In this document: piece by piece, positions 4,841 through 21,877 of the stretch
How the letters are laid out: every line of letters starts with the position of its first letter
Position numbering within the stretch: the first letter of the stretch is position 1
Origin: a virus
Virus record (IMG/VR): IMGVR_UViG_3300017971_000815
Span: 1 to 21,877 of that record
Direction: 5' to 3' (one strand)
Length of the DNA stretch: 21,877 nucleotides
Program-made: the position numbers and the translations under genes
The notes under the pieces: model-generated
What the model was told of the DNA's origin: nothing
Seen by the model: the letters and a program-made list of their open reading frames with translations, nothing else
The model's database searches: none

Positions 4841-4841
4841 A

Positions 4842-5111
4842 ATGGAAATAGAACTTGTTAAGAATCCACATGACTATAGGAAATTTTATTATGTTTTAAA
4901 TTACAGTAAAGAATATTCTAATGATGATGCAGAATTATTTGCAATGAGAATATGCAAAGAATTAAAAGAAAAAACAACTGTTAATTGGAATATATCTACT
5001 TGTGTTGGTGGGAAATGCACAATTGAAACTAAAACCATAATGAATAGAGTTAAGAGGAAGAAATTAAAAGGACAGATAATAGAAATAGACAATGATTTTA
5101 TTTTTAGATAG
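4842..5111 (+). CDS. Small unknown phage protein
   Basis: An 89-residue protein of mixed alpha/beta character: an N-terminal acidic helix (SNDDAELFAMRICKELKE), a strand pair with two cysteines (WNISTCVGGKCTIE), and a basic segment (RVKRKKLKG) before a final strand. The two Cys in CVGGKC could bind a metal or form a hairpin turn, but there is no second pair. It starts one base after the preceding stop. No family recognised. Confidence 0.55.
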   Translation: MEIELVKNPHDYRKFYYVLNYSKEYSNDDAELFAMRICKELKEKTTVNWNISTCVGGKCTIETKTIMNRVKRKKLKGQIIEIDNDFIFR

Positions 5112-5122
5112 AGGGGAATGAT

Positions 5123-5587
5123 ATGAAACTTGACAAGTTATTAAAACAGATTGATGAGGCTATGGGTTTTGTTCAAAAGCTTGATTATCAAAAAGGACAG
5201 AAACCACCTAAAACAGCTACAAGAAAAGATACTGCTTTGACAAAATCAGTAAATAGTCCTAAAGACATTAATAAGGCCGTTGATATGTTGGTTAAGGGAG
5301 TTCAAAAGAAAATAGATGCTGATTATTCAAAGAACTATTCTAACCTAAAACCACCTAAATTATTAGTCAAGAAAGGCAAGAGGTATATAAAGATTATAAG
5401 AAAGGAAGTAACAGGTTCAGGTACTTCTGTATTTGCTTTTATTGATGCTAAAGAAGGACCAACATTTGGTGATATTTTAAAACCTGCATCATGGAATGCT
5501 CCTGCTAAACATGCAAGAGGTAGTGTATTTGATGGAAGTTGGGGTGTTAATTCAGTAGGTGTGTATGGTCCTGCATATATGAGGTAA
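5123..5587 (+). CDS. Small phage protein with capsid-targeting-like N-terminus
   Basis: A 154-residue protein preceded by GAGGGG. Its N-terminus (MKLDKLLKQIDEAMG) resembles the short amphipathic leader shared by the small proteins at 18340-21838 and contains I-D-E before A, a plausible T4-type prohead-protease site. The middle is basic and helical (residues ~25-100, many Lys). The C-terminus is Gly/Trp-rich (SWNAPAKHARGSVFDGSWG) and probably folded. It stands between unassigned structural-block genes, far from the main cluster of leader-bearing genes. I suggest an internal head protein, with modest confidence; the leader match alone could be chance. Confidence 0.6.
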   Translation: MKLDKLLKQIDEAMGFVQKLDYQKGQKPPKTATRKDTALTKSVNSPKDINKAVDMLVKGVQKKIDADYSKNYSNLKPPKLLVKKGKRYIKIIRKEVTGSGTSVFAFIDAKEGPTFGDILKPASWNAPAKHARGSVFDGSWGVNSVGVYGPAYMR

Positions 5588-5588
5588 T

Positions 5589-6026
5589 ATGAAATTTAAG
5601 GATTATGATGATAAAACATTTCTTGTAAAGAGGTTAAAGCCTGATAAAGTAAAGGACTTGAATCCTAATACACTTAGAATGAAGACATATAAAAGAACTG
5701 CTTATGTTAAAACAGATGTGCCGATGGTTAAGAGAACTTTAGGTAACTTACCTAGATATGCAGATAAGAAACCTAAAGTTCACTTTAAAGAATGGATGGG
5801 CATTAAGGGAGAAAAATTACATCCTGATTTTAGTGTTGATTCATATGGTAAATCTGAAGCAGATGGTAAATGGTATGGATGGTCTCATAGGGCTATATAT
5901 GGTTTTGGTGTCGGTGATACTGTAAAGGCTGATACAATAGGAAATAAAGATAGTAAAGAGTATGTTATAAAGACAGATGATCAGGCAAAAGCAGCAGCAA
6001 AGGCATTTGCTAGTGAAGTAAGTTAA
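5589..6026 (+). CDS. Small basic phage protein, unknown
   Basis: A 145-residue, Lys-rich protein that starts one base after the preceding stop (TAATATG). Its most distinctive block is GKWYGWSHRAIYGFGVGDTVK near residues 93-113, a pattern I have met in unnamed proteins of other large phages. A basic N-terminal half (~1-60) could contact nucleic acid. Its last 17 bases overlap tail-to-tail with the uvsW-like gene on the other strand, so there is no space for a terminator. Function unknown; structural or head-internal by context. Confidence 0.6.
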   Translation: MKFKDYDDKTFLVKRLKPDKVKDLNPNTLRMKTYKRTAYVKTDVPMVKRTLGNLPRYADKKPKVHFKEWMGIKGEKLHPDFSVDSYGKSEADGKWYGWSHRAIYGFGVGDTVKADTIGNKDSKEYVIKTDDQAKAAAKAFASEVS

Positions 6027-7425
6027 TTTCTTCTACATCAAATCCTTCTGTTTCATAATACTCAATTCTTTTCTTTCCATGTTTCTTTAGGAATTTTACA
6101 TTATCTATTATGTCGTATATCACAGCACCATCTTTTTTATTTTCATGCAATCTAAGAGTTCTTCCTACACTTTGTAATGTTCTGATTTTACTTTTAACAG
6201 GCGAAGCTAACATAGCGTATTTTAGATTAGGTATATTTATCCCTTGTTGAAATATTCCATATGTGGCGATTAAGGCTATATTTTTCTTCTTAATCATTTT
6301 TTGTCTCCATTCTTCTCTTAATCCAACTTTATCTTTTCCTGATAAAAATATAACTTCCTTATTTGTAAGTCTATTTAAAACATCCACAAGCTTTTTGCCT
6401 TCTGAAATATAACTCACAAGTAATAAAATGTTTTCTTCTGACTTCTTTACAATTTTACCTATTAACTCTAATCTTTTTGTTGTATAAAAGACTTCTTTTT
6501 TTATGTCCTTATATATGTTACCTTCTATGTTACTATAATTTAAATTGATGACCTTTACATTACACTTAGATATAAATCCCTGTTCAGCAAGTAATCCTGA
6601 TGGATATTCTTTTAATACAGGTCCAAGAAAAGATTTTATATTATATAGTTCTGCTATATTGTTAGGTAGTGTTCCTGTAAACCCAATTCTATATTTTGCT
6701 TTTACTTTAGAAAATATTTTTTTGAGTTCCATTGCCTTTACTTGGTGGCACTCATCCCCTATAACAATGTGAAAAGAATTTAACATAGAGTGGTTATTTT
6801 TCAAACTTTGCCAAGTAGAAATAACAATATGTTTATCCCATTCTTTATGTCCTGTATAGATACGTCCTATCATATTTTCAGGAAGTCCATATTCTATCAT
6901 ATCTGTTCTGAACTGTTCTACTAATTGAACAGATGGAACAATAATTAAAGCTTTTGTTACACCTGTTATTTTTCTACTTAACATCAGGTTTTTTATGATA
7001 TATGATATTACAAGAGATTTACCCGATGCTGTAGCTGATCTTATTATACCCTTAGATCGCTTTAAGCATATCTCAATAGCATCTTTTTGATATGGTCTTG
7101 GTTGATGTAATAGATCATATCTAATATCTATTTCATGGCCTTTAAATAGGGATTTTACGCCTTCATCAAGCTCAAGGGGTATATCAGGGTATAATTTCTT
7201 ATGGACTCTAATATAGTCCAATAGAAGTCCATATGGCAATAATCCTGCTTCTGTTAGAAAGTGTGTTTTACCATCCCATATCCCTGCTTTATACTTTCCC
7301 ATAAAGAAGTAATTTTTTACATGAATAGCAAAACTATCTTCCATATCTGCAAGGTAATCATGGTGATTGCATTTGATCCTTATCTTGTAATTCTTCTCTA
7401 ATGTTAATTGTGCTTTATAATCCAT
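6010..7425 (-). CDS. uvsW: UvsW-like superfamily 2 DNA helicase
   Basis: A 471-residue ATP-dependent helicase resembling T4 UvsW, which unwinds R-loops and branched DNA and shifts replication from origin-dependent to recombination-dependent start. The N-terminal domain (residues ~30-75) has the UvsW-type signature F-MGKYKAGIWDG...LLPYGLL. The helicase motifs follow in order: Q-like motif PYQKDAIE (111-118), motif I SATASGKS (130-137), motif II DECH (224-227), motif III TGTL (250-253), and motif VI QSVGRTLR (418-425). The DEAH box has Cys in third place. Its start overlaps the end of the uvsY-like gene by 11 bases, so the two are co-translated, as they are neighbours in T4. Slightly shorter than T4 UvsW, but all core motifs are intact. 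Confidence 0.87.
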   Translation of the reverse strand: MDYKAQLTLEKNYKIRIKCNHHDYLADMEDSFAIHVKNYFFMGKYKAGIWDGKTHFLTEAGLLPYGLLLDYIRVHKKLYPDIPLELDEGVKSLFKGHEIDIRYDLLHQPRPYQKDAIEICLKRSKGIIRSATASGKSLVISYIIKNLMLSRKITGVTKALIIVPSVQLVEQFRTDMIEYGLPENMIGRIYTGHKEWDKHIVISTWQSLKNNHSMLNSFHIVIGDECHQVKAMELKKIFSKVKAKYRIGFTGTLPNNIAELYNIKSFLGPVLKEYPSGLLAEQGFISKCNVKVINLNYSNIEGNIYKDIKKEVFYTTKRLELIGKIVKKSEENILLLVSYISEGKKLVDVLNRLTNKEVIFLSGKDKVGLREEWRQKMIKKKNIALIATYGIFQQGINIPNLKYAMLASPVKSKIRTLQSVGRTLRLHENKKDGAVIYDIIDNVKFLKKHGKKRIEYYETEGFDVEEINLLH

Positions 7426-7843
7426 GTCTTTCCCGTTCTGTAAATGTTTTCATACTCCATCCCATGCTGTTAAATGCTTTCCAACACATATCAAAAAATC
7501 TTACTCTAACTTGTTGTTTTTGCATCATTTTCTTTAGTTTTATGATTTTTTCATCTGATGGTAGGCAATAATCCTCTATTTCTTTCTTTTGCCATTCGTG
7601 TTCATCATTGAACCTGTAGTATTTATAGCGTATACCTCTAAGAGCATCTAGCTTTCTTTCAAGGATTTCATATTTATTGAGTTCATTATAATATAGTTCT
7701 TTATATTTAATTACCATCATTTCATTTTTTTGCAATTTTTCTGCAATATCTATCTCAGAAAAGGTTGCCAAATCCTCAATTTTGTGCTCTAAGTGCAGAT
7801 TATCAAATATTTGCTTTAGTTCATTAGCTTCAGTATTGCTCAT
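7415..7843 (-). CDS. uvsY: UvsY-like recombination mediator
   Basis: A 142-residue protein, close to the ~137 of T4 UvsY, the mediator that loads UvsX recombinase onto ssDNA coated with gp32. I chose the Met at 7843: GGAGA lies seven to eight bases upstream, and the longer reading to 7939 would run through the promoters and start in the palindrome. The UvsY pattern is visible: a long helix with a Y-x-G/R-like turn (ELNKYEILERKLDALRG), a K-E-x-E region, a D-x-K-x-x-K segment (SDEKIIKLKKMM), and a C-terminal helix ending GWSMKTF-x-E like the SRGFAIK end of T4 UvsY. Adjacency to uvsW strengthens the call. No UvsX gene is in this window. Similarity is judged by eye. Confidence 0.72.
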   Translation of the reverse strand: MSNTEANELKQIFDNLHLEHKIEDLATFSEIDIAEKLQKNEMMVIKYKELYYNELNKYEILERKLDALRGIRYKYYRFNDEHEWQKKEIEDYCLPSDEKIIKLKKMMQKQQVRVRFFDMCWKAFNSMGWSMKTFTERERHGL

Positions 7844-7872
7844 TGATTTCTCCAAGTATTTGTTTTCATTAG

Positions 7873-7880
7873 TATTTATA
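7873..7880 (-). promoter_or_regulatory. T4-late-type promoter box TATAAATA toward uvsY
   Basis: The minus strand reads TATAAATA, the consensus of T4 late promoters recognised by gp55. Transcription would begin about 7 bases downstream, leaving a ~23-base leader that contains the GGAGA site of the uvsY-like gene. A lone octamer is weak evidence in AT-rich DNA; its spacing to the gene and the parallel case at 18269 raise it. Confidence 0.4.
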
Positions 7881-7898
7881 TATTTATGTGCTTCTATA

Positions 7899-7906
7899 TA
7901 TAAATA
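7899..7906 (+). promoter_or_regulatory. T4-late-type promoter box TATAAATA toward helicase
   Basis: An exact TATAAATA on the plus strand, upstream of the palindrome. A start near 7913 would give the helicase mRNA a ~57-base leader containing the whole palindrome and the GGAG at 7963. The box partly overlaps the -10 of the opposite sigma70-type promoter. Confidence 0.3.
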
Positions 7907-7932
7907 ATACCACAAAAAACACATTTTGTTAA
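7904..7932 (-). promoter_or_regulatory. Sigma70-type promoter for uvsY-uvsW
   Basis: On the minus strand, TTAACA (7932-7927) is followed after 17 bases by TATTAT (7909-7904), with an extended -10 TGG immediately upstream of it (7912-7910). Each hexamer differs from consensus at one position. Transcription would begin near 7897 and give a ~54-base leader to the uvsY-like start at 7843. Confidence 0.65.
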
Positions 7933-7943
7933 TTAACAAAATG
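7922..7943 (+). promoter_or_regulatory. Perfect 22-bp palindrome, likely operator or shared -35 core
   Basis: The half-site CATTTTGTTAA is followed directly by its exact complement, with no spacer. The centre is TTAATTAA. The right half contains TTAACA for the plus-strand promoter and the left half contains the same hexamer for the minus-strand promoter. A dimeric repressor or activator would bind such a site and control both directions at once. As RNA it could form an 11-bp AT-rich helix only with no loop, so a DNA role is more likely than a terminator. Confidence 0.7.
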
Positions 7944-7961
7944 AAAAAAATAGTGTATAAT
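7933..7961 (+). promoter_or_regulatory. Sigma70-type promoter for replicative helicase operon
   Basis: TTAACA (7933-7938), a 17-base spacer, and a perfect TATAAT (7956-7961) directly preceded by TG. This is the best sigma70-type promoter I see in the window. The start would fall near 7968, only one or two bases before the helicase ATG at 7970, so the transcript would be almost leaderless and would lack the GGAG at 7963-7966. Confidence 0.7.
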
Positions 7962-7969
7962 AGGAGTCT

Positions 7970-9361
7970 ATGGAAAGATTAAATTCAAATTTTTTAGAAA
8001 AAATCATATTGAAGGGCATGTTGGTAGATAAAGATTTCTTGGTTTTGATTAGTTCGGTCTTTGAAGAAGAATACTTTGATAATCCAAATATTGGTCATTC
8101 TTTTAAGTTCTGTAAAGACTATTTTACTGAATACTCAAACATACCATCTATAGATGCTATAATAAATTCATCTGAAAATCCTGATGAGATTAGAGAGACT
8201 ATTCAGGAAGCAAGGGATACTGATTTTAATATTGCCGATAGTTACGAATTTCTATTAAATCAGTCAAATGATTATTTGAAAGAAAAGGCATTGAAACGTG
8301 CTATTATAGAATCAGTTGATGATGTAGAAGTTCCTGAAAGAAGAAATGATATTCAAAAAAGGATTGAAAATGCTCTAATAAAAGATATCAAGGTTGATTT
8401 GGGATTACGATATTTTGAAGACATGAGAGTAAGGTTGAGAAGAATATTTACAACTAGCGAAAACAGAATACCTACCTATTTTCCACTATTTGATGAACTA
8501 ATAAATGGTGGATTCCCCCCTTATACATTTAATGTTTTAACTGCAAAAATACATGGTGGTAAATCTAACACAATGGCGAATTTTGCAGCAAGACAGGTTT
8601 TACATGGTCATAATGTAGTTCTTCTTACATTAGAAATGTCTGAAGATGCATTTGCTCAAAGGTTTGATGGTATATATTCAGGTCTTGATATAAATAGAAT
8701 GTATTTATCAGAAAATATGAAAAGATCATTGATGTATAAATTAAGAGATTATAAACAATTAGAAAATAGAGGCGAATTATTCATAAAACAATATCCAACT
8801 GGTGATGCATCTATTAATGACTTTAGAATCTATTTAAGGGAGTTGTTACTTAGGGGAATAAATATTGATATCATTTATGTTGACTATATTAATTTAATGA
8901 AGTCAGCATATAAGATTGACAATAATATGTATTCTTCTATTAAGAGAGTATCTGAAGAACTTAGAGCATTATCTCTTGAGTTTAATTGTCCTATAATATC
9001 AGTATCTCAGTTGAATAGAGAGGGATTTTTTATTCAATTTAGTGAGGTTAATTTCAATCATGTTGCTGAATCAATGGGTATTCCTGCAACGGCTGATTTT
9101 ATGATGATTATGGGTACTGATGAGGAACAAATGGCGTATGAGTCTGAAATCCTTTATAAAATTACTAAGTCGAGAATTGGTGGAAGGGTTGGTGCTATGG
9201 AGAAATTTTATCTTGACAAGCGTAGTCTAAAAATGTATGACAGTTGTGAAGAAGAACAATGGATTGAAGATGCTACAATTTCAGGTGATGATAGGTTATC
9301 TATTGATCATGAAGGAAGGGAACAGGAAGGAAGGGATAATAATAGGAGAAGAAGAAATTAA
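7970..9361 (+). CDS. 41: Replicative DNA helicase, T4 gp41-like
   Basis: A 463-residue DnaB/RecA-fold helicase, close to the ~475 of T4 gp41, the hexameric 5'-3' helicase of the replisome. The N-terminal domain matches gp41 in outline (EKIILKGMLVDKDFL, then EEEYFDNP, then YSNIPSIDAI). The ATPase domain has Walker A AKIHGGKS at 192-199, the DnaB-type LEMSEDAFAQR segment at 221-231, FIKQYPTGDA as in gp41, Walker B IIYVDYINLM around D305, and a distal GLPATADF-like block (GIPATADFMM). The first Walker-A residue is Ala instead of Gly. The C-terminal ~45 residues are charged and disordered. The ATG at 7970 keeps the gp41-like N-terminus, but its GGAG is only three bases away. No gp59 loader or primase gene is recognised in this window. 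Confidence 0.88.
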   Translation: MERLNSNFLEKIILKGMLVDKDFLVLISSVFEEEYFDNPNIGHSFKFCKDYFTEYSNIPSIDAIINSSENPDEIRETIQEARDTDFNIADSYEFLLNQSNDYLKEKALKRAIIESVDDVEVPERRNDIQKRIENALIKDIKVDLGLRYFEDMRVRLRRIFTTSENRIPTYFPLFDELINGGFPPYTFNVLTAKIHGGKSNTMANFAARQVLHGHNVVLLTLEMSEDAFAQRFDGIYSGLDINRMYLSENMKRSLMYKLRDYKQLENRGELFIKQYPTGDASINDFRIYLRELLLRGINIDIIYVDYINLMKSAYKIDNNMYSSIKRVSEELRALSLEFNCPIISVSQLNREGFFIQFSEVNFNHVAESMGIPATADFMMIMGTDEEQMAYESEILYKITKSRIGGRVGAMEKFYLDKRSLKMYDSCEEEQWIEDATISGDDRLSIDHEGREQEGRDNNRRRRN

Positions 9362-9976
9362 ATGCTTAGTCCAAGAAAAATACGTATGCTTCAATTATTG
9401 GATAAGCAAGTTGGGTCATGTAAGAAATGTAAATTAAATGTAAATGGAACTTTAACACCATATTGGACTCCATATTCAAAATATGCAATAATAGCTGAAT
9501 ATCCTAGTTTAAATGATATTAGAAAAAAAATACCATTTACAAGTTCATCAGGAGAGATATTTTTAAAGGAATTATCAAGAGTAGGAATTAATTCAAAAGA
9601 ATTATTGGTTATACATTCCATTCAATGTAATTCTAAAGTTAAGCCTTCTACAGAACAGTTAGATTCTTGTCATGATCATATAAGGAAGTATTTAAAGATT
9701 GTAAATCCTGAAAAGATTCTTTGTTTGGGTAATTATGGTAAGTATCCTTTTACAGGTAGTTTCTATGGTATTTTAAAAGAACGGGGTGAATTTGTAGAAA
9801 GAAGCATAAATGAAGGAACAGTTTTTCCTGTTTTATTTACTATTCATCCTGCATATTGTACGTATAATAGAGATGAAGGAATTGCAATGTTGGGTAATGA
9901 TATACGGTTATTCAAAGAAACAGTATTTGAAAGAAGATCAGATTGGTTTTTTGATGAAGAAGAATTTATGATATAG
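9362..9976 (+). CDS. Uracil-DNA glycosylase superfamily protein (Fe-S family 4/5-like)
   Basis: A 204-residue protein with the layout of [4Fe-4S] uracil-DNA glycosylases. C20 and C23 (SCKKCKL) pair with C89 and C103 as the four cluster ligands. A Rossmann-like strand (YAIIAEYPSLND, 41-52) stands at motif A, PF-TSSSG (58-64) at the substrate loop, and HPAYC (162-166) at the motif with the conserved His. Family 4 enzymes normally show GE-[A/G]-PG-x-x-E at motif A; here it is AEYPSLND, so the Gly and the second acid are changed. It may recognise another base or DNA structure, or be catalytically weak. It follows the helicase stop with no gap, which suggests a role in replication or in repair of phage DNA. 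Confidence 0.78.
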   Translation: MLSPRKIRMLQLLDKQVGSCKKCKLNVNGTLTPYWTPYSKYAIIAEYPSLNDIRKKIPFTSSSGEIFLKELSRVGINSKELLVIHSIQCNSKVKPSTEQLDSCHDHIRKYLKIVNPEKILCLGNYGKYPFTGSFYGILKERGEFVERSINEGTVFPVLFTIHPAYCTYNRDEGIAMLGNDIRLFKETVFERRSDWFFDEEEFMI

Positions 9977-9984
9977 GAGAAATC

Positions 9985-10338
9985 ATGTCAGATTCTAGTG
10001 GTGGTTTTAATTTTGGAAGTATTGTATTTTGGATTGTAATGCTTAATATGCTTGGTTTTTGTGATGGTGATGAAGATTCTAATACAAAGGTTGAAATTAC
10101 AGTTGATGATAAGCCTTCAATAACAGAACAGGTAAAAGAAAAAATAGGCGATATAAAGCCTGAACTTGAAGAAGTTGTTGAAAAGGCTAAAAAATCATTT
10201 GATACTGTTAAAAAAGATGTTAAAGATCAAATGACAAAAGAAATGAACGAATCAATGGGTAATGATGAGAATAATACTGAAAAAAAATTTAATGAAAATT
10301 ATGATAGTGTCTATGGTACAAATGAAGATAAGTGGTGA
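9985..10338 (+). CDS. Small membrane-anchored acidic protein, unknown
   Basis: A 117-residue protein with one hydrophobic segment (residues ~10-26, FGSIVFWIVMLNMLGFC) near the N-terminus, then a charged, mainly acidic, helical tail with heptad-like Lys/Glu spacing (EEVVEKAKKSFDTVKKDVKDQM). The cysteine just after the segment lacks a clear lipobox. AGGAG precedes the ATG by six bases. The tail would lie on one side of the inner membrane. It sits in the replication operon between the glycosylase-like and phoH genes, so membrane tethering of a replication or host-takeover factor is possible. No family recognised. Confidence 0.65.
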   Translation: MSDSSGGFNFGSIVFWIVMLNMLGFCDGDEDSNTKVEITVDDKPSITEQVKEKIGDIKPELEEVVEKAKKSFDTVKKDVKDQMTKEMNESMGNDENNTEKKFNENYDSVYGTNEDKW

Positions 10339-10380
10339 TAAATATAGTCAGGTAATTAAACTATTGGAGGGAATGCCTAT

Positions 10381-11685
10381 ATGAAAAAATCTATTACCAT
10401 AGATACTAATTTATTGTTAGATGATGAAAAAATTATTTTTAAGCTTGTAAAGGAATATGATGAGATACTTATTCCATCAACTGTTTTGAAGGAGTTAGAT
10501 AAACATAAATACACTCCTAATTTAGCCTTTAGTGCAAGAAATGCTATAAGATCAATTCAAGAGTTTAAGCAAAAATATCCTGAAAAATTAAAGTTGCCTT
10601 TATCAGATAGGGATATATCTTCAAATGATCAATGGATTATAGATACAACAAAGAAGTACAATGCTGATCTTGCAACCAAAGATATTTTAATGTCAATGAT
10701 TGCAGAATCAGAAGGGATTAATTGTAAGGTTTATGATGTAGTAATGAACAATTTGTTTGATCCATATAATTATGTTACGGTGGATCAGATATATAGTCAT
10801 AGGAATACTTTTGAATGGGATAAATTTTATAAGGGTGAGGCTTATGATTCTATTCTTGATTTTTATTCAATGGTATTGAATAAAGAATTGAGTAGAGATT
10901 CATGGTTTTTTATTTTCATACAGGCTGAAACAGGAGACCCATATATATATGCCAATAATCCTACTAAAGAATATCTTACAAGAATTGATCATCATCCCCA
11001 TTATAGGGAGTTGAAATGTGACAATAGTAAGGTTATAAAGGCAAAGGATATATATCAAATATGTGCTATATATGCTTTAAGGGAAGCACCACATGTCTTG
11101 ATAACAGGTAAGTGGGGAAGTGGTAAATCTTTACTAACTTCTGCTTATGCTCTTGAACATAATGAAAAGAAGACTTTTATTACAAGACCACCTATTGGTA
11201 TAAATAGTAAATATAATATAGGTTTTATGCCCGGACCTAAAGAAGAAAAAATGGTTGATTGGTTGGCAGGATTTACATCTTCATTGTATTACATTTATGG
11301 TAATACGAATGGTCAAACAGATGGAAAGAACAGTTATGATTATGTAAAGGATCATATTTTCAGTCAAAAATATGAAGTAATTCCTTTAAATGCAATTCAA
11401 GGGTTGTCTTTACTTGACGATGATGTTATGCTAATAGATGAAGTTCAATTGATTTCTGTTGACTATATGAGTATGATTCTTAGTAGACCAACTAAGAATG
11501 GTAAATTAATCTTGATGGGGGATTTGAAACAGACATATGATGTTGTTAAACCATCTGAATCAGGACTATTAAAGCTATTGAGAATTCTTCCTCATCGTTC
11601 AATGGCATTTGTTAAGTTAGAAATGTCTTATAGATCAGATATATTAGAAATTGCTGATTTGTTACAAGATAAGACAATGGGTTAA
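10381..11685 (+). CDS. phoH: PIN-PhoH fusion protein (PhoH2-type ATPase)
   Basis: A 434-residue protein joining a PIN ribonuclease domain to a PhoH ATPase. The PIN domain (~1-130) has the expected acids: D8 (TIDTN), E38 (LKELD), D83 (SNDQWI) and D101 (ATKDILM). The PhoH domain (~215-434) has Walker A GKWGSGKS (243-250), the RPPIG loop (268-272), MPG-x-x-EEK (282-289), Walker B MLIDEVQ (349-355), and GDLKQTYD. This matches bacterial YlaK/PhoH2, in which PIN-linked PhoH acts as an RNA helicase and nuclease. PhoH genes are common in large phages, though many are the short form without PIN. GGAGGG lies eight bases before the ATG. The three tRNA genes begin six bases after its stop. Confidence 0.88.
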   Translation: MKKSITIDTNLLLDDEKIIFKLVKEYDEILIPSTVLKELDKHKYTPNLAFSARNAIRSIQEFKQKYPEKLKLPLSDRDISSNDQWIIDTTKKYNADLATKDILMSMIAESEGINCKVYDVVMNNLFDPYNYVTVDQIYSHRNTFEWDKFYKGEAYDSILDFYSMVLNKELSRDSWFFIFIQAETGDPYIYANNPTKEYLTRIDHHPHYRELKCDNSKVIKAKDIYQICAIYALREAPHVLITGKWGSGKSLLTSAYALEHNEKKTFITRPPIGINSKYNIGFMPGPKEEKMVDWLAGFTSSLYYIYGNTNGQTDGKNSYDYVKDHIFSQKYEVIPLNAIQGLSLLDDDVMLIDEVQLISVDYMSMILSRPTKNGKLILMGDLKQTYDVVKPSESGLLKLLRILPHRSMAFVKLEMSYRSDILEIADLLQDKTMG

Positions 11686-11690
11686 TATAA

Positions 11691-11768
11691 GGGACCGTAG
11701 CCGAATTTGGCATAGGCACTTGCCTTAGAAGCAAGAATCTGAAGGTTCGACTCCTTCCGGTCCTACCA
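11691..11768 (+). tRNA. tRNA-Leu(UAG), short variable arm
   Basis: A 78-base tRNA with encoded CCA. The acceptor helix GGGACCG pairs with CGGTCCT and has a G1-U72 wobble; the discriminator is A. The D arm is GCC...GGC with GG in the loop. The anticodon stem CTTGC/GCAAG holds the loop CTTAGAA, so the anticodon is UAG (codon CUA, leucine). The variable region is only AATCT, and the T arm is GAAGG TTCGACT CCTTC. Bacterial leucine tRNAs normally carry a long variable arm, so identity by anticodon is clear but charging is less certain. Confidence 0.9.
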
Positions 11769-11786
11769 ATTTATAAGGGGATTAAA

Positions 11787-11867
11787 ATGACTTGTGAAGA
11801 ATTAATGTTAGAAATTTGGGATAGAATTTTAGATTGGTACATTTGGGGAAGTGGTGGAACTTGGTAG
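11787..11867 (+). CDS. Possible 26-residue peptide between tRNA genes
   Basis: ATG at 11787 is preceded by AAGGGG at a good distance (six bases) and opens a 26-codon frame (starts MTCEELMLEIWDRILDWYIW) that ends inside the downstream tRNA. The peptide would be acidic at first and then aromatic. It may be a real small gene, a remnant, or chance; the good ribosome site is the only positive sign. The gap between the first two tRNAs otherwise holds nothing I can name. Confidence 0.3.
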   Translation: MTCEELMLEIWDRILDWYIWGSGGTW

Positions 11868-11934
11868 ACACAACAGACTTAAAATCTGTTGGTCCTTAGT
11901 GACCGTGGGGGTTCAAATCCCCCCTTCCCCACCA
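11845..11934 (+). tRNA. tRNA-Leu(UAA), long variable arm
   Basis: A 90-base tRNA with encoded CCA. The acceptor is GGGGAAG/CTTCCCC and the discriminator A. The anticodon stem ACAGA/TCTGT holds the loop CTTAAAA, so the anticodon is UAA (codon UUA). The variable arm is long, with GGTC...GACC pairing, as normal for leucine tRNA. The T arm is GGGGG TTCAAAT CCCCC. It is canonical in all parts. Confidence 0.95.
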
Positions 11935-11940
11935 TTTTAA

Positions 11941-12018
11941 GGGGATGTAGCCGAATTTGGTATAGGCGATAGATTCAAAATCTATAATCTGAAGGTTCGA
12001 CTCCTTCCATCCCTACCA
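11941..12018 (+). tRNA. tRNA-Leu(CAA), short variable arm
   Basis: A 78-base tRNA with encoded CCA, six bases after the previous one. The acceptor GGGGATG pairs with CATCCCT and has a G1-U72 wobble. The anticodon stem ATAGA/TCTAT holds the loop TTCAAAA, giving CAA (codon UUG, leucine). The D arm, the AATCT variable region and the T arm are nearly the same as in the tRNA at 11691, so these two are duplicates with changed acceptor and anticodon stems. It too lacks the long arm typical of leucine tRNA. Confidence 0.9.
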
Positions 12019-14965: not shown

Positions 14966-15308
14966 AATAGGTAAACCACCATATTTAGAATGCTCATCAA
15001 GAGGGGATAAAAGGTTTTCTGCTTTTTATGCTAAAGTTAATGGAAAATCCATTGAAGATCAATATCAGGCAGCAAAGATATTTGAGGATGGGTCAAGGGG
15101 TTTGACATGGAAAGAAGCTAAAGGTAGAAAACCAATTAATCATGATGAGATATCTAAACTCTATAAAGAGTTATGGAAACAATACCTACTAAACAATTTA
15201 ACCCTTCTTAGAGGCATCAAACAGGCATCAGGATTATCTGACATGTTTGGTCAAGAAGGGCATAATTGCCAAGCTTTAACCTTATGGGAATTAAGAAATG
15301 AATTATAA
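14958..15308 (+). CDS. Conserved-type phage protein, function unknown
   Basis: A 116-residue protein that starts with GTG at 14958, inside the end of the preceding gene, with GGAGAG about four bases upstream. The layout RGDKRFSAFYAKV, then KSIEDQYQAAKIF, then GLTWKEAKGRKP, then a helix LYKELWKQYLLNN, and finally GLSDMFGQEGHNCQALTLWE is one that I know from many phage proteins annotated only as hypothetical. The ending suggests recognition of a small-molecule or nucleic-acid substrate, but I cannot name one. Its last six bases overlap the end of the opposite-strand gene. Confidence 0.7.
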   Translation: MIRIGKPPYLECSSRGDKRFSAFYAKVNGKSIEDQYQAAKIFEDGSRGLTWKEAKGRKPINHDEISKLYKELWKQYLLNNLTLLRGIKQASGLSDMFGQEGHNCQALTLWELRNEL

Positions 15309-15668
15309 ATTAAATATATTTCTTATTTTACTTTCCCTTTGTTGATCTTGTGGTGGTGGTTCTTCCTCTTGATCTTGTGGTGGTGGTTCTTCCTCTTGAT
15401 CAGGTGGAACTTCTAATTTCGTTCTTGTTGGCTTTGTTTCCTTATCAACATTTTTCCACTTGCTTTTCTTATCCCTTAAATCTTCCATAATAGCATCATT
15501 GGCATCTGATTCTTCTTTTTTTGCCATAGCCTTGATTGCATTATCTATTATTTTAATATATCGTGCCACCTTTTCAGAAGGGTATTCTCCACCAACTTTT
15601 GGTTCAGGCAATCCAAGTGCTTTTGAAATTACACTTTCTTGTTCACCTAAATATTTTTCTATTAGCAT
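15303..15668 (-). CDS. Small protein with capsid-targeting-like leader and PPPQDQEEE repeats
   Basis: A 121-residue protein with an AGGAGA site eight bases upstream. The leader MLIEKYLGE then Q matches the motif shared with the 18340-21838 genes and ends in L-G-E, a plausible prohead-protease site. Residues ~10-60 are helical. Residues ~85-110 consist of two tandem QEEEPPPQD-type repeats from a 27-base DNA duplication, and the last residues are basic. It is the last gene of the minus-strand lysis-like operon, although its leader looks like that of the plus-strand cluster. I suggest an internal head protein; its unstructured repeat would act as a spacer. Confidence 0.65.
   Translation of the reverse strand: MLIEKYLGEQESVISKALGLPEPKVGGEYPSEKVARYIKIIDNAIKAMAKKEESDANDAIMEDLRDKKSKWKNVDKETKPTRTKLEVPPDQEEEPPPQDQEEEPPPQDQQRESKIRNIFNL
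15344..15397 (-). repeat. 27-bp perfect tandem duplication
   Basis: Two exact 27-base copies (15344-15370 and 15371-15397; each begins GATCTTGTGGTGG on the plus strand), with the first bases of a third (GATC-GGTGG). They add nine residues per copy in frame to the Pro/Glu-rich tail. Perfect identity suggests a recent slippage event. Confidence 0.9.
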
Positions 15669-16688: not shown

Positions 16689-17066
16689 CTATTTTTTTCT
16701 TTTTTCCTTTTCGTTTTGTATCCATACATGTAATGCTGTATAGAGTTCTTTTACTGCATCTTCATTTTTTCCGATTGCCTTAGTAAATTCTTTTACTGAT
16801 TCTTCATCATTTCCTATTGCTTTGGTGAATTCCTTTACATATAATGGGTTTGGAATTGAAACTCCTTTATCAGGCAATGATTTGTTTGTAAGAAATCTTA
16901 AAACTACATTAGCTGATCCATATATTAAAGCAACTACTGCCGGTGCTGCTTCAGGTGGTAGAGGTATTCCATTTGAAGCAGCAAGACCTATTACCAAAGT
17001 TGTTAATATCACATTGACATTAATTGTCTTACTCTTTAACATTCCTAACAAAATCTGTTTATTCAT
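16689..17066 (-). CDS. Holin-like two-TM protein with 14-residue repeats
   Basis: A 125-residue membrane protein. TM1 spans about residues 18-33 (NVILTTLVIGLAASNG) and TM2 about 41-58 (APAVVALIYGSANVVLRFL), joined by a short Pro-rich turn (IPLPPEA), followed by a polar LTNKSLPDKG. This layout resembles phage holins of the two-TM type. The C-terminus contains 14-residue repeats starting at V77, V91 and V105 (VKEFTKAIG first), then a Lys-rich end. AAGGAGA precedes the ATG. With the neighbouring hydrolase and coiled-coil TM protein it suggests a lysis cassette. The long repeat tail is unusual for a holin and may gate timing or bind a partner. Confidence 0.7.
   Translation of the reverse strand: MNKQILLGMLKSKTINVNVILTTLVIGLAASNGIPLPPEAAPAVVALIYGSANVVLRFLTNKSLPDKGVSIPNPLYVKEFTKAIGNDEESVKEFTKAIGKNEDAVKELYTALHVWIQNEKEKRKK
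16755..16838 (-). repeat. 42-bp in-frame repeat in holin-like gene
   Basis: Two near-identical 42-base units encode VKEFTKAIG-x-(N/D)-E-(E/D)-(S/A) twice (residues 77-90 and 91-104), followed by a third diverged partial unit (VKELYTALHVW). The heptad-compatible 14-residue period fits an amphipathic helix or coiled coil on the cytoplasmic tail. Confidence 0.8.
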
Positions 17067-17138: not shown

Positions 17139-17744
17139 TTAGACGTATATCTTTTCTTCTGTGTCAAAACTAGGTTTACATGTATCAACAATTTTATCTC
17201 TTAAATGTATAACATCTCTCATAGCTATTATCATTTCTCTATCTTTATTTATAATATCCCTGTAATAGCTTCTTATTGATTCCATGTTTATATCATCTAT
17301 AATTAGGGGTCTTTTTCTGATTCCAAAACTGAATGTCCAATTGTAGTCCGTATTAATGTGAGAGTTAAACCAATGAACTTCTATCAAATCATTATTTGCG
17401 GTAACTATGTTATTTTTAAATTCCCTATATTTTTCCCAACCATCAATTCCATCAGCTACAGACTTATGGATTACAGATATAACATCTCTTTCTTCATCAG
17501 CTACAAAATCTAGCCAACATCTTCCAATTAATTCTGTATATCCTTTAAATCCAAGATCAATTGATAAACTTGCATTTGCAAATCTTACAATTAGATTTTG
17601 ATCAAGAACTAATGAATACATATTTGTGAAATTCAACATATTGAAGATGATATTCCTTAGTTCTTTTACTTCATCTTCTAAGGTACTACGTCTTTCAATA
17701 CCTGATCTACGTTCATTAGTGACTTGTTTTTTCAAATCTGACAT
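17139..17744 (-). CDS. Stand-alone PAS-domain protein
   Basis: A 201-residue protein. A basic N-terminus and short helix (residues ~1-35, with ERRSGIERRS) lead into a PAS fold at ~36-145: SLVLDQNLIVRFANAS as the first hairpin, GYTELIGRCWLDFV and DEERD-x-I as the helical part, EKYREFKNNIVTANN and LIEVHWFNSHI as later strands, then NWTFSFGIRKR. The last ~55 residues are helical (YYRDIINKDREMIIAMRDVIHLRDKI), probably a coiled coil for dimer formation. No kinase, cyclase or DNA-binding domain is attached, so the sensor would act through partners. PAS domains sense ligands, redox state or light in bacteria and are uncommon in phages. It lies between a tail-anchored protein and the holin-like gene. 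AAGGAG precedes the start. Confidence 0.78.
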   Translation of the reverse strand: MSDLKKQVTNERRSGIERRSTLEDEVKELRNIIFNMLNFTNMYSLVLDQNLIVRFANASLSIDLGFKGYTELIGRCWLDFVADEERDVISVIHKSVADGIDGWEKYREFKNNIVTANNDLIEVHWFNSHINTDYNWTFSFGIRKRPLIIDDINMESIRSYYRDIINKDREMIIAMRDVIHLRDKIVDTCKPSFDTEEKIYV

Positions 17745-18323: not shown

Positions 18324-18331
18324 TATAAATA
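18324..18331 (+). promoter_or_regulatory. T4-late-type promoter box toward internal-protein cluster
   Basis: An exact TATAAATA. Transcription would begin at about 18337-18339, at or next to the ATG at 18340. The first cluster gene has no visible ribosome site, so its mRNA would be leaderless. Late expression would fit head proteins. This region (18230-18339) otherwise holds no gene and is very AT-rich. Confidence 0.45.
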
Positions 18332-18339
18332 TTAGTGAT

Positions 18340-18546
18340 ATGAAAAGACTACTAAATAAAATAGATGGATATTTGGACATAAAAGAGAAGTATGATTCTA
18401 TTTCTTTATCTTCTAAAAGTGATTATAATTTAAATGAAATCATTGAAATTATTAAAAAATCTTCTGATAAAGAGAAATCTATTTCTATGTTTAATGATGA
18501 TATTAAGCAAAAAATTAGAAAATTAATGGAAGGGGGAATATTATAA
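18340..18546 (+). CDS. Small protein with capsid-targeting-like leader
   Basis: A 68-residue protein that opens with MKRLLNKIDGYLDIKEK, nearly the same as the leader of the gene at 19838 (LLSKIDGYL). The rest is Ser/Lys/Asp-rich with a helical end (IKQKIRKLMEGG). No ribosome site is visible before the ATG, and a stop codon lies in frame just upstream, so the start cannot be moved back. The stop overlaps the next ATG (TAATG). Probably a small internal head protein of the cluster; no other family is seen. Confidence 0.65.
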   Translation: MKRLLNKIDGYLDIKEKYDSISLSSKSDYNLNEIIEIIKKSSDKEKSISMFNDDIKQKIRKLMEGGIL

Positions 18547-18842
18547 TGGGTGTAGATAAGATTGATAAATATCTCAATAAAAAAGAAAGTAAGGTAGATG
18601 AACAAAATGATGAAAAGAAATCTCAGATGTATAGAGAAGGTCTTTTTCAATTAAGAAGTGCTTTTTTTGAATTTAGTCAAAATTATATGAAAGCTATGGG
18701 TATGATGATGCAAAGTAAAAATGTTTATCCTAAATACAAAAAATATAGAGATTCTATAGCAACTACTTATGAAAAGATGGATGATTCTATTTCAAAACAT
18801 TTTGAAATTCTTACTAAAGATTTAGATAAGCAAAATAGATAA
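18546..18842 (+). CDS. Small helical protein with capsid-targeting-like leader
   Basis: A 98-residue protein. The leader MGVDKIDKYLNKKES resembles those of its neighbours but lacks a clear L-x-E end. The body is helical and Met-rich (FFEFSQNYMKAMGMMMQSK) and then basic and acidic by turns. It is coupled to the preceding gene by one-base overlap. It might be a scaffold or internal protein. No named domain. Confidence 0.62.
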   Translation: MGVDKIDKYLNKKESKVDEQNDEKKSQMYREGLFQLRSAFFEFSQNYMKAMGMMMQSKNVYPKYKKYRDSIATTYEKMDDSISKHFEILTKDLDKQNR

Positions 18843-18851
18843 GGAGTTAAA

Positions 18852-19376
18852 ATGAACAAAATTAAAGAAGTATTACTTGAAGCTGATAAGAAGTCTGATA
18901 AGAAGGCTGATAAGAAAACTGATAGCAGTTCTAAAAAGAAAGAAGGAAAAATGTTAGGTAAGCTTCATGATCTTGATGATAAAATTGAAGATTTTATTGA
19001 TAGTTTAGAAGATCAGATTATGAGTGTTGAGGATAATCCTGTATTTGTTAAAAAAGCACAACAGCTTTTAGCAGACATGTCAAAAGAATATTCTGAATTT
19101 ATTATGGCATTAAGAGCTATTGTCAATGCAGTTGATAGAAAAGGTCAAATGTTACCATCTATTCCACCACAACCATCTAGAGTTAGAGATGTAATGGATG
19201 GATCAGGAGAGGAAGAACCACCTGTTGAGGAAGAATTGCCACCTGAAGAAGAAGAAGCACCACCTGAAGAAGAAGGTGATGATGATGAATTTGAATTGAA
19301 GGTTGCTAAAAAGAAAGGTGGAAAAAAGAAACCTGCAAAGAAAAAAAGTCCTGTAAAAGAAGCATTGGAACTATAA
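18852..19376 (+). CDS. Acidic-to-basic low-complexity protein with leader ending LLE|A
   Basis: A 174-residue protein with a GGAG site. The leader MNKIKEVLLE then ADKK has L-L-E before A, an excellent T4-type prohead-protease site. A Lys/Asp/Ser-rich stretch follows (~12-33), then a helical domain (~35-100, LHDLDDKIEDFIDSLEDQI), a run of EEE/PP repeats (~118-148, strongly acidic), and a Lys-rich, histone-like end (KVAKKKGGKKKPAKKK at ~153-168). Acidic runs beside Lys-rich tails recall T4 scaffold and internal proteins. I infer a head-internal or scaffold protein. The DNA of the EEE/PP part is purine-rich and repeat-like. Confidence 0.68.
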   Translation: MNKIKEVLLEADKKSDKKADKKTDSSSKKKEGKMLGKLHDLDDKIEDFIDSLEDQIMSVEDNPVFVKKAQQLLADMSKEYSEFIMALRAIVNAVDRKGQMLPSIPPQPSRVRDVMDGSGEEEPPVEEELPPEEEEAPPEEEGDDDEFELKVAKKKGGKKKPAKKKSPVKEALEL

Positions 19377-19377
19377 T

Positions 19378-19854
19378 ATGAATTTACTTGAAACAATTGA
19401 TGATATACTTGAACAAGAAAAGAGTATATTACCTAAAGATAAAACAAAAACAAAGACTAATTTTGAGTTTGATGAAAATATGTTTGATAAAATGGCAAAC
19501 TTTATCATTAATCTTGATCCCGATTCTCTTAGTGATTCTCAAGTTGAATCAGTTATAAATATGATTGAAGACCTTGAAGTTGATGTTGATGAAATAGATG
19601 AGGCTAAAAAACCAAAGCTTGCTAAAAAAACGGTCTCAACTGAAAACCAATATTCTAAGAGATGGTATAGAAAAAACAGAACAAATATAAAAAGAAGAAA
19701 GGCGAAATTCAGAAGGAGTTCTGAAGGTAGAAAAAGGCTAATGAAGAAAAAAAGATTAGCTAAAATGGGAAGGACTCCTACAGGCAGAAAGAAAGTAAGA
19801 TATCACGTAAAAAAGAAAAGCGATAGGAGAGTTGACAATGAACCTACTAAGTAA
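19378..19854 (+). CDS. Acidic propeptide + basic histone-like head protein (paralogue A)
   Basis: A 158-residue protein in two parts. The N-terminal ~77 residues hold the shared leader MNLLETIDDILEQ and an acidic helical region (FIINLDPDSLSDSQVESV, then LEVDVDEIDEA). The remaining ~80 are extremely Arg/Lys-rich (RRKAKFRRSSEGRKRLMKKK, later GRKKVRYHVKKK). The switch falls directly at I-D-E before AKK, a plausible prohead-protease site. The acidic half would neutralise the basic half until cleavage. The same architecture, with shared motifs (NLDPDSLS/NLDSDNLS, KF-RR), is found in the gene at 20401. I infer a DNA-binding protein packed into the head. TATAATATG links it to the preceding gene. Confidence 0.72.
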   Translation: MNLLETIDDILEQEKSILPKDKTKTKTNFEFDENMFDKMANFIINLDPDSLSDSQVESVINMIEDLEVDVDEIDEAKKPKLAKKTVSTENQYSKRWYRKNRTNIKRRKAKFRRSSEGRKRLMKKKRLAKMGRTPTGRKKVRYHVKKKSDRRVDNEPTK

Positions 19855-20050
19855 AATTGATGGTTACTTAACTGAAAAAGTTGAAGTAGATCAAGTTATG
19901 AAAACAAAAGACGGTAAAGTAGCTGTTAAATGGAAGGGTAAAAAAAGTTTTCAAGTTATTGATGATAAAGAAGTAGGATTATATTTAATGTATCTCATAA
20001 CAAGAAATCCAGAAGAAAAGAAAAAAATTACGGCTACTGTTGCGAAATAA
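19838..20050 (+). CDS. Small protein with capsid-targeting-like leader ending YLTE
   Basis: A 70-residue protein. I use the ATG at 19838, not the TTG at 19832, because GGAG at 19826-19829 lies eight bases before it. The leader MNLLSKIDGYLTE then K is the cleanest example of the shared motif. After it comes a small beta-like domain (DQVMKTKDGKVAVKWKGKKSFQVI) and a helix. The start overlaps the end of the preceding gene by 17 bases. After cleavage at E13 a ~57-residue basic domain would remain. Function unknown. Confidence 0.68.
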   Translation: MNLLSKIDGYLTEKVEVDQVMKTKDGKVAVKWKGKKSFQVIDDKEVGLYLMYLITRNPEEKKKITATVAK

Positions 20051-20062
20051 GGAGAATATACA

Positions 20063-20401
20063 ATGAGTTTAATAGATAAAATTGATGAATTTATTGATAA
20101 GATAGATGATAGAAAATATGATACTAGTTATACACTTGAAGATTTACAAGAATTAGGATTAGAAGCAGATGTTATTGAAAGATTAATTGAAGACGGTATG
20201 AAACAGAAGGATGATTACAAACCTTCAGAATATTTAAATGGTAAAAGAAAAGTTGGTGGTAAGGAATATGATAATTTCTTTAAAGGTATGCTAAAGAAAT
20301 GGAAAATCAAGAGCTATAAAGACCTTCCTAAAAATAAACAAGATGATTTTTTTAATGATGTTGATAAGGGATGGAATTCTAAAAAGGAGAAGAAAAAATA
20401 A
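20063..20401 (+). CDS. Leader-bearing protein with phage C-terminal FFK...VDKGW domain
   Basis: A 112-residue protein with AAGGAGA upstream. The leader is MSLIDKIDEFIDKID, with no clear L-x-E. Residues ~20-50 form an acidic helix-turn-helix-like part (TLEDLQELGLEADVIERLI). The C-terminal ~50 residues (NFFKGMLKKWKIKSYKDLP, then FFNDVDKGW) form a small helical block that I have seen at the ends of many virion and hypothetical proteins of large phages. TAATG overlap couples it to the next gene. Its place between two leader-bearing genes supports a head-internal role. Confidence 0.65.
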   Translation: MSLIDKIDEFIDKIDDRKYDTSYTLEDLQELGLEADVIERLIEDGMKQKDDYKPSEYLNGKRKVGGKEYDNFFKGMLKKWKIKSYKDLPKNKQDDFFNDVDKGWNSKKEKKK

Positions 20402-20823
20402 TGGATATTCAAACAAAACTTCAAGACTATTTGGATAATAAAGATAATGATGAATACTATCCTGAAGAAGATGCTGCATTAATGGATAGAATGATGGAAT
20501 TTATTATGAATCTTGATTCTGATAATCTTAGTGAAGATGAGATTGATGAGGTAACGGAAATTATTGATTCTATTGCTGATGAAAATCTTGATGAGACTCT
20601 TGAAGATGATCTTGATGAAGCTGTTGCTGCTAGAAAGGTAAAAATTAAACCTTCTGATAAACGTAAAAGAAGAATGGAATATAGACGTAATAGAGCAGCA
20701 TTGAAGCTGAAAGCTAAGAAATTCAGAAGGACAACTAAGTATAAGCAATGGAATAGAATGAAGAAAAGAAAGGCAAGTCAAGGTAAGACAGCAAGAGGTA
20801 AAAGAGTTAGAAAGTTCATGTAA
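20401..20823 (+). CDS. Acidic propeptide + basic histone-like head protein (paralogue B)
   Basis: A 140-residue paralogue of the protein at 19378. The leader is MDIQTKLQDYLDNK. An acidic region follows (EDEIDEVTEIIDSIADENL, up to DDLDEA at ~75), then a strongly basic half (RRNRAALKLKAKKFRRTT, later RKASQGKTARGKRVRKFM). The acid-to-base switch again falls at L-D-E before A. Shared landmarks with paralogue A are MxxFIxNLDxDxLS in the acidic part and K-x-KKFRR or AKFRR in the basic part. One probable duplication is separated by two unrelated leader genes. No gap lies between its stop and the gp4-like start. Confidence 0.72.
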   Translation: MDIQTKLQDYLDNKDNDEYYPEEDAALMDRMMEFIMNLDSDNLSEDEIDEVTEIIDSIADENLDETLEDDLDEAVAARKVKIKPSDKRKRRMEYRRNRAALKLKAKKFRRTTKYKQWNRMKKRKASQGKTARGKRVRKFM

Positions 20824-21267
20824 ATGAAGAAATATAAGAGAAAAAAGAACGAAAAGGAATATATTCCTAATAATCCTGAAAAGTATTGTGGAACATATCC
20901 TATTGTATGCAGGTCTTCTTGGGAACATAGAGTATGTCAATATTTTGATTTTCATAAGGACGTTATAGAGTGGTCAAGTGAGAATCATAGGATAAAATAT
21001 TGGGATGGTAGTAGAGGTAAATATAGGATATATTATCCTGATTTTTACGTTATGTTCAAAGGAAGGGGTAAGTATATAGTAGAGGTTAAACCACAAAAAG
21101 ATTTAAGGATGCCAAGGAAAAAAGGTGGTAAGAGTCAGAAGACTATGATGATTAGAGAAGATACGTTCTTAACTAATCAATATAAGTTTGAAGCAGCAAA
21201 GGAATACTGTAAGAAGCTTGGTTATAAATTTGTAATACTCACAGAAAAGGATTTGTTTAGGAGATAA
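20824..21267 (+). CDS. 4: Head-completion nuclease, T4 gp4-like
   Basis: A 147-residue protein close in size to T4 gp4 (~150), which completes the filled head before tail joining. The TnsA-like/PD-(D/E)xK nuclease layout is clear: CRSSWEHRVCQYFDFHKDVI with the first-helix Glu, EWSSENHRIKYWD, then YYPDFYV with the catalytic Asp, and YIVEVKPQKDL with the E-x-K pair, followed by a Lys-rich strip and a final strand YKFVILTEKDLF. It begins directly after the preceding stop. It has no capsid-targeting-like leader, unlike the genes around it. Its presence strongly supports a head-related meaning for the cluster. Confidence 0.88.
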   Translation: MKKYKRKKNEKEYIPNNPEKYCGTYPIVCRSSWEHRVCQYFDFHKDVIEWSSENHRIKYWDGSRGKYRIYYPDFYVMFKGRGKYIVEVKPQKDLRMPRKKGGKSQKTMMIREDTFLTNQYKFEAAKEYCKKLGYKFVILTEKDLFRR

Positions 21268-21283
21268 ATATAGGAGATAAATA
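21259..21283 (+). repeat. Duplicated ribosome-binding segment
   Basis: AGGAGATAAATA occurs twice (21259-21270 and 21272-21283), one base apart. The first copy includes the stop codon of the gp4-like gene; the second is the Shine-Dalgarno region of the next gene. It probably arose by slippage. The longer spacing keeps the next start from overlapping. Confidence 0.7.
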
Positions 21284-21541
21284 ATGGACTTAATAGAAAA
21301 ATATATGGGTGAAAAGGCATTTTTTCCAAAGGGTAGATCAGCATATACACCTGGTGATATAGTAAAAATTACAGGTAATGTAAATAAGAAATATAAAGGA
21401 AAACAAGGTGAGGTTGTTACTAATTTAATGGACCCCGGACATGAAAAGAAATATCATATTGAGATTGATGTAAATGGAAAAAAAATAGTAGTTTTAAATA
21501 CTGAAGTTGAATTAGTTAAACCTAGAAGTGTATTAAAGTAA
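21284..21541 (+). CDS. Leader-bearing protein with KOW/SH3-like domain
   Basis: An 85-residue protein. The leader MDLIEKYMGE then K fits the shared motif with an M-G-E end. After it, residues ~19-75 read like a KOW/SH3-type beta barrel: YTPGDIVKITGNVNKKYKGK, QGEVV, then strands YHIEIDVNGKKIVVL and TEVELVKP. KOW domains bind RNA or proteins, as in NusG and ribosomal protein L24. Here it would be carried to the head interior and possibly injected with DNA. The fold call is by eye. Confidence 0.65.
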   Translation: MDLIEKYMGEKAFFPKGRSAYTPGDIVKITGNVNKKYKGKQGEVVTNLMDPGHEKKYHIEIDVNGKKIVVLNTEVELVKPRSVLK

Positions 21542-21553
21542 TGGGGGATAAAT

Positions 21554-21838
21554 ATGTATTTAATAGACAAATATCTAATTGAAGCTAATAAAGAATATAT
21601 ACATGTAATTGATGATAATGGAGAGTTTAATGTAATGCATTCCGTTCATAATAGTCCTCAATTAGGTGGTCAGGTAATGAAAACATTTAAAAGTAAAAAG
21701 AAGGCGATTGAGTTTGCTTTTAAAATTCAGAAAAAAGAAATCATTTTAAGTTGGAAACAGAAAGGAAATAGAGCAACTGGTGCAACGTGGTCCAAAGAGG
21801 GGGTTCATGCTACTGTGAGACAACTTAGAGGAAAATAA
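21554..21838 (+). CDS. Small leader-bearing protein ending YLIE|A
   Basis: A 94-residue protein with a GGGG site. The leader MYLIDKYLIE then ANKEY has L-I-E before A, a good prohead-protease site. The mature part starts with beta strands (YIHVIDDNGEFNVMHS), contains a Lys-rich helix (FKSKKKAIEFAFKIQKK), and ends with a basic, Thr/Gly-rich segment (RATGATWSKEGVHATVRQLRGK). No known domain. It belongs to the probable internal-head cluster. Confidence 0.65.
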   Translation: MYLIDKYLIEANKEYIHVIDDNGEFNVMHSVHNSPQLGGQVMKTFKSKKKAIEFAFKIQKKEIILSWKQKGNRATGATWSKEGVHATVRQLRGK

Positions 21839-21848
21839 GGAGAGAGAA

Positions 21849-21877
21849 ATGACAGACATAGAAAAGAGATTGGATAT
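21849..21877 (+). CDS. Start of a further cluster gene, cut by window end
   Basis: AAGGAGAGA precedes an ATG at 21849 that opens MTDIEKRLDI. Only about ten residues are visible. The start is like the shared leader (IEK-x-L), so the cluster probably goes on beyond the window. Confidence 0.6.

Follow-up and report, generated by a model that had tools for sequence, protein, structure and literature searches.

An expanded and diversified family of predicted T4-type head-targeting leaders in an uncultured T4-like phage fragment

The window analyzed here is a 21.9-kb uncultured virus fragment from IMG/VR (record IMGVR_UViG_3300017971_000815, 21,877 nucleotides), in which a series of genes open with versions of a short N-terminal leader that in several cases ends in [LIM]-x-E. 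These leaders are very probably T4-type capsid targeting propeptides, which would load the proteins bearing them into the phage head and be removed by the head protease; taken together, they are best described, from sequence comparison, as an expanded and diversified form of the T4 head-cargo targeting system and not as a new kind of system. By its gene content, the window genome is that of a distant T4-like myovirus, a virus of bacteria: a family B polymerase gene (polB) and gp4 are present in the window and gp20 to gp23 in its relatives. The polymerase is ~28% identical to those of T4-like isolates, and comparison of the window at the DNA level gave no isolate match; its close relatives, found by a polymerase scan, are the contigs L003 (94%), G009 (77%), G003 (71%) and G010 (51%), while the polB of a further related contig of 120 kb, G029, is 57.5% identical to that of the window.

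Two formal leader patterns, [LIVMFY]xx[YF][LIVMF]xE and [LIVM]x[KT][ILM][DEQ]x[YFILKM][LIVM], scored near the protein start, match the N-termini of 8 of the 35 window genes; internal windows of these proteins give an expectation of 0.00. Comparable leader patterns are absent from all 567 genes of the two T4-like isolates used as controls (0/359 in phiM12 and 0/208 in HTVC008M; Fisher p = 6e-11 for the window versus the control isolates). Because the patterns were partly shaped on the window, the contigs G029 and G030, which did not contribute to the definition of the strict motif, provide a cleaner test; a leader N-terminus is found there on 23 of 223 genes (1.03 expected) and 32 of 266 genes (2.18 expected), respectively. 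Three window genes, 18852, 20401 and 5123 (genes are designated here by their lower coordinate), fall outside the formal patterns and are assigned to the family through their orthologues. The open reading frames and N-termini listed in an earlier sequence-only reading of the window, which had proposed a removable head-targeting peptide, are all present.

The leaders can be divided into type A1 (MDLIDKYLGE), type A2 (LLxKIDxYLxE), type B (M[KR][FL]KxY[LI]xE) and type C (for example EKIQSAYESILNE|A), the last appearing repeatedly, in several of the genes situated between gp21 and gp22. Their likeness to the capsid targeting sequence of T4 IPII and IPIII, processed by gp21, lies in a length of ~10 residues at the N-terminus, hydrophobic residues at matching positions and an [LI]-x-E end. 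Set position by position against the IPIII leader MKTYQEFIAE, taken from the T4 record, A1 MDLIDKYLGE matches at I4, Y7, L8 and E10, and type B MKFKxYLxE, with one residue fewer, at F3, Y6, L7 and E9; mutagenesis of T4 IPIII assigned residues 4 and 7 to targeting and residues 8 and 10 to processing (PMC9026906). The residue preceding the putative cut (P1) is E in 36 of 45 distinct A1 leaders and in 64 of 80 distinct B leaders (100/125, 80%), all chosen without requiring E at that position.

Leaders are interchangeable on homologous bodies. The main leader type is B in G010 and G030 and A in the window and G009, and the same body may be found behind either. The clearest case is the minus-strand gene 15303 (15303..15668, 121 aa), whose body (ISKALxLPEPxVGG) is preceded in the window by the A1 leader MLIEKYLGE (15642..15668, minus strand), followed by Q, and in five relatives by a type B leader (MKFKNYLKE, MRYFRYLTE, MKFKKYLTE, MRYLNYLNE and MRLKNFLTE). 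Gene 18852 (18852..19376, plus strand, 174 aa) begins with MNKIKEVLLE (18852..18881) and then A, a start resembling that of T4 gp24 (MAKINELLRE); homologous bodies carry GEKFREVLNE|A, KRKLRQHLLE|G, type B KFKDYLVE|G or type C DIQRKYEDNILNE|S. The body of the A2 gene 20063 (20063..20401, plus strand, 112 aa, MSLIDKIDEFIDK) is preceded, depending on the genome, by a long A2 leader (VLE|A or ITE|G), a short A2 leader (ILEKIDNYLSE) or a type C leader (YDAVRRLYESSILRE); orthologue junctions read VLE|AKRKVGGKEYD, ITE|GRKVGGPEYD and LHE|AKIGGKEYD, the cut site lying directly before the body only in some orthologues. In gene 19838 (19838..20050, plus strand, 70 aa), the leader MNLLSKIDGYLTE (19838..19876) is followed by the K of a PHROG 14601 body that lacks the leader in RB43 and Lw1, whose homologues begin at the point at which the leader ends. 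The outlying gene 5123 (5123..5587, plus strand, 154 aa) has MKLDKLLKQIDE and then A ahead of a PHROG 5014 / DUF7717 body, and its L176 relative has MKFKDWTEKKELDE|G ahead of the same MGFVQ body. Across these swaps, the position of the leader and the [LIV]xE junction (LLE|A, LNE|A, LVE|G, VLE|A, ITE|G) stay constant; the swaps and the leaderless homologues show that the leader is portable among differing bodies.

A shared start could in principle mean only that all these proteins descend from a single family of duplicated genes, the bodies having diverged since. Genes 19378 and 20401 are indeed paralogues of each other, so that the earlier description of the bodies as unrelated does not hold for every pair, and both the metallopeptidase-like proteins of G010 and two YRG-family proteins are also paralogues. 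Such an origin is nevertheless most improbable: it is contradicted by the occurrence of one body with different leader types, or with none, across genomes, and both a tRNA nucleotidyltransferase and a P-loop kinase are among the tagged bodies, the tRNA nucleotidyltransferases of other phages aligning only from about residue 30-45, beyond the leader. Even less credence can be given to a nucleic-acid element, such as a translation start enhancer or a recombination sequence, in place of a peptide signal. The location of the leader at the start codon of small, tightly packed genes would suit it, but third codon positions differ more (0.35) than first and second positions (0.19), a pattern of selection at the protein level that therefore disfavors a DNA element, and three differing peptide versions (A, B and C) occupy the same place. 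In its pure form, whether paralogous or DNA-level, an origin of this sort is rejected on the leader swaps and the codon pattern.

The head genes that a T4-type system would involve were found in the relatives. A scan with leader DNA led to L078, which encodes a portal protein (PHROG 213, 1e-96), a protease (PHROG 207, 1.6e-55), a scaffold protein (PHROG 237, 1e-9) and gp23 (PHROG 138, 3e-82), and carries a leader gene starting MNLIDKYIGE within that cluster; by sequence comparison, L078 gp23 contains NFLME|T close to where the T4 protein has its FLTE|A site. A second scan, with L078 gp23, located head genes at 80 loci, and gp21 is present in nearly all of those whose contig extends that far; leader genes are located between gp20 and gp22 in relatives. 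Since several of these loci derive from the metagenomes that also yielded G003, G009 and L003, they may be other parts of those three genomes. Both halves of the system are found on a single contig in G029, where orthologues of 18340, 18852, 19378, 20063, 20401 and gp4 occur in the same order as in the window (99758-102035), interspersed with and followed by additional leader genes, and where gp21 is situated ~4.5 kb beyond the end of the orthologous operon (99758-102293), in a head cluster at 104993-109602 (gp20 at 104993, gp21 at 106817, gp22 at 107513 and gp23 at 108379). The gp21 of L109/G029 is a Peptidase_S77 (PF03420, E 6.4e-30). The gp21-like protease that the sequence-only reading called for elsewhere in the genome is thus present in the relatives G029/L109 and L078, the window fragment itself being without that region. 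Judged on such sequence-level features, the leader family is of the T4 kind, each feature being found either in the window or in its relatives.

Late in infection, the leader would form a short amphipathic helix that docks the protein on the scaffold core (gp22 and partners) during prohead assembly; the cargo would be enclosed in the prohead, where the gp21-type prohead protease would cut after [L/I/V]-x-E, the cut leader peptides would exit and the proteins would remain in the head, from which they would probably be ejected with the DNA. Docking on gp22, cleavage, presence in the virion and ejection are steps that we infer; a large set of proteins is probably delivered together with the virus DNA. 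Several points weigh against this scheme. The window fragment holds no protease gene, and a Pfam search for S77 in the first three long partial relatives gave no match, because those contigs are fragments without head genes; gene starts were called with a home-made caller; the leaders of 18546 and 20401 lack a recognizable cut site in the window, so that the [L/I/M]-x-E ending reported earlier applies to several genes and not to these two; and the leader genes of L074 and L079 that adjoin genes for the neck and sheath may encode proteins other than head cargo. The A2 leaders also resemble the beginning of the gp23 propeptide (LLNKWKPLLEG in T4, LVKKWDAVLKE in L078) only weakly, ranking at roughly the 99.9th percentile among background windows, and a relationship between the two is suggestive only.

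Some of these observations would be accommodated by leaders that stay on the protein as permanent docking helices, anchoring it for example to the scaffold, the portal, the neck or the tail. The leaders without a cut site and the proximity to neck and tail-sheath genes, seen in L080 as well, speak for this option, as does the finding that D at position 10 of T4 IPIII stops processing but not targeting (PMC9026906). It is nonetheless unlikely, given the prevalence of E at P1 among leaders selected without it, the conserved [LIV]xE junction adjoining the body and the gp21-type protease nearby, all of which favor a removable T4-type propeptide.

In the window, most leader genes lie in a plus-strand operon that starts with the 68-aa A2 gene 18340 (18340..18546, MKRLLNKIDGYLDIKE), orthologues of which keep LLxKIDxYLxIQE; comparison with them places a putative cut after IKE (leader 18340..18387), a few residues further on, at an I-K/Q-E site retained in most orthologues. 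It is followed by the 98-aa A2 gene 18546 (18546..18842, MGVDKIDKYLNKKE), which belongs to the family by the formal pattern and its orthologues and whose L071 homologue begins MSTMKQFLERALNE. The 158-aa product of 19378 (19378..19854, MNLLETIDDILEQE) has a highly basic second half (+26), and that of its paralogue 20401 (20401..20823, 140 aa, MDIQTKLQDYLDNK) has an acidic half (-25) followed by a basic half (+29); 20401 orthologues have YLKE, YLNE or YLQE at the end of the leader. Among the leader genes, as had been noted previously, is a gp4-like head closure gene that bears no leader itself (20824..21267, plus strand, PHROG 218, E 3e-40). Downstream of it are two A1 genes assigned by sequence and formal pattern, 21284 (21284..21541, 85 aa, MDLIEKYMGE then K), a weak relative of which in G009 reads MDLIEKYIGE|A, and 21554 (21554..21838, 94 aa, MYLIDKYLIE then A). 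The last gene, at 21849..21877, is cut by the window end; a Shine-Dalgarno-like stretch precedes its start (MTDIEKRLD), which resembles the MSDIQRKLEEYL family. PHROGs and Pfam searches gave no function for most leader proteins of the window. The divergent operon holding 15303 also contains, on the minus strand, genes that by eye encode a PAS-like protein (17139-17744) and a holin-like membrane protein (16689-17066), profile matches being non-significant.

Late expression of the leader operon is predicted from a conserved block upstream of its first gene. The sequence TATAAATA (18324..18331, plus strand), the T4 late promoter box, lies 8 nt before 18340, and the block TATAAATA(A)TTAGTGATATG is retained in 7 of the 8 orthologous loci examined, where the upstream DNA differs. 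As TATAAATA by itself is not rarer than chance in the AT-rich window, only its conserved position counts. With a gap of 8-9 nt between box and ATG and no Shine-Dalgarno sequence, the late mRNA of the first leader gene is, from T4 promoter geometry, probably nearly leaderless. The block TATAAATATTAGTGATATG without a Shine-Dalgarno sequence is seen at 18324-18342 and in the orthologues in L037, L044, L054, L073, L075 and L076.

Where the bodies can be interpreted, they point to varied cargo. The acidic-then-basic proteins 19378/20401 would suit core or internal DNA-binding roles. A leader-bearing tRNA nucleotidyltransferase is encoded in G010 (PHROG 2244, 7e-80), with similar genes in G003, G009 and L185, and virion-delivered tRNA repair is a possible function; loci of this kind are at L036 14544-15971, L051 12754-14163 and L185 494-1924. 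Relatives also encode a leader-bearing P-loop kinase (AAA_33 2.7e-7; PHROG 12810 1e-29). A tentative and rather doubtful extension is that the leader kinds are separate address labels for different prohead-core sites or stages and, together with this, that the phage pre-loads the tRNA nucleotidyltransferase and the P-loop kinase to shield tRNAs from host defense on arrival. Two G010 proteins with type B leaders are homologous to a ten-gene array of Agrobacterium phage Atu_ph07. An Alt-like ADP-ribosyltransferase, considered for these G010/Atu_ph07 bodies from their YRG...RS...E pattern, is not claimed, as profile and fold searches gave no support: there was no Pfam hit, no PDB profile hit and, with a mediocre model (pLDDT 69), no fold hit. 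Three adjacent paralogues in L051 (4915-6874) have an HExxH-like motif, two of them with identical leaders MRFKQYINEITKPT, and are possible metallopeptidases.

The system shares with T4, besides the leader itself, a T4-type late promoter and, in relatives, the gp20-gp21-gp22-gp23 cluster. It departs from T4 in scale, with 23-32 N-terminal matches per genome compared with the IPs and Alt in T4; in its three interchangeable leader kinds, of which the LIDKYLGE / LLxKIDxYLxE kind is not on the T4 proteins examined; and in the tagging of enzymes such as the tRNA nucleotidyltransferase. In giant phages of the phiKZ/SPN3US type, a gp21-related protease processes head proteins after a short E-ending motif, and diverged paralogues have conserved N-termini (PMC5694885); most propeptides there exceed 100 residues and are cut at A/S-x-E, whereas those described here have ~10-16 residues and end in [LIV]-x-E. 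The ten tandem homologous genes of the Atu_ph07 array (L090 15693-25716) all start M[KR]WxxL[TNI]E, a different leader wording (W3, L6, E8) for which no packaging role is claimed. The N-terminal 30 residues of P1 DarB suffice to direct a reporter to the head (PMC9024508), but that signal is longer, belongs to another phage type and forms no repeated leader family. The open-access literature searched, with limited coverage, held no description of the leader family. What was known as the leader of a few T4 proteins would become a readable label by which dozens of uncharacterized proteins in each genome can be marked as probable head cargo across a widespread uncultured T4-like group, so that many hypothetical proteins gain a testable role, delivery with the DNA; the new leader peptides are also on offer for protein delivery by phage heads.

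Apart from the leader genes, the window contains three consecutive tRNA-Leu genes (11691-12018; anticodons tag, taa and caa) and, between tail-type genes, an open reading frame that by eye is GIY-YIG-like (3625-4290), possibly a homing endonuclease. At 3878-10537, L001 encodes a probable fiber protein of 2219 residues that contains very long serine repeats.

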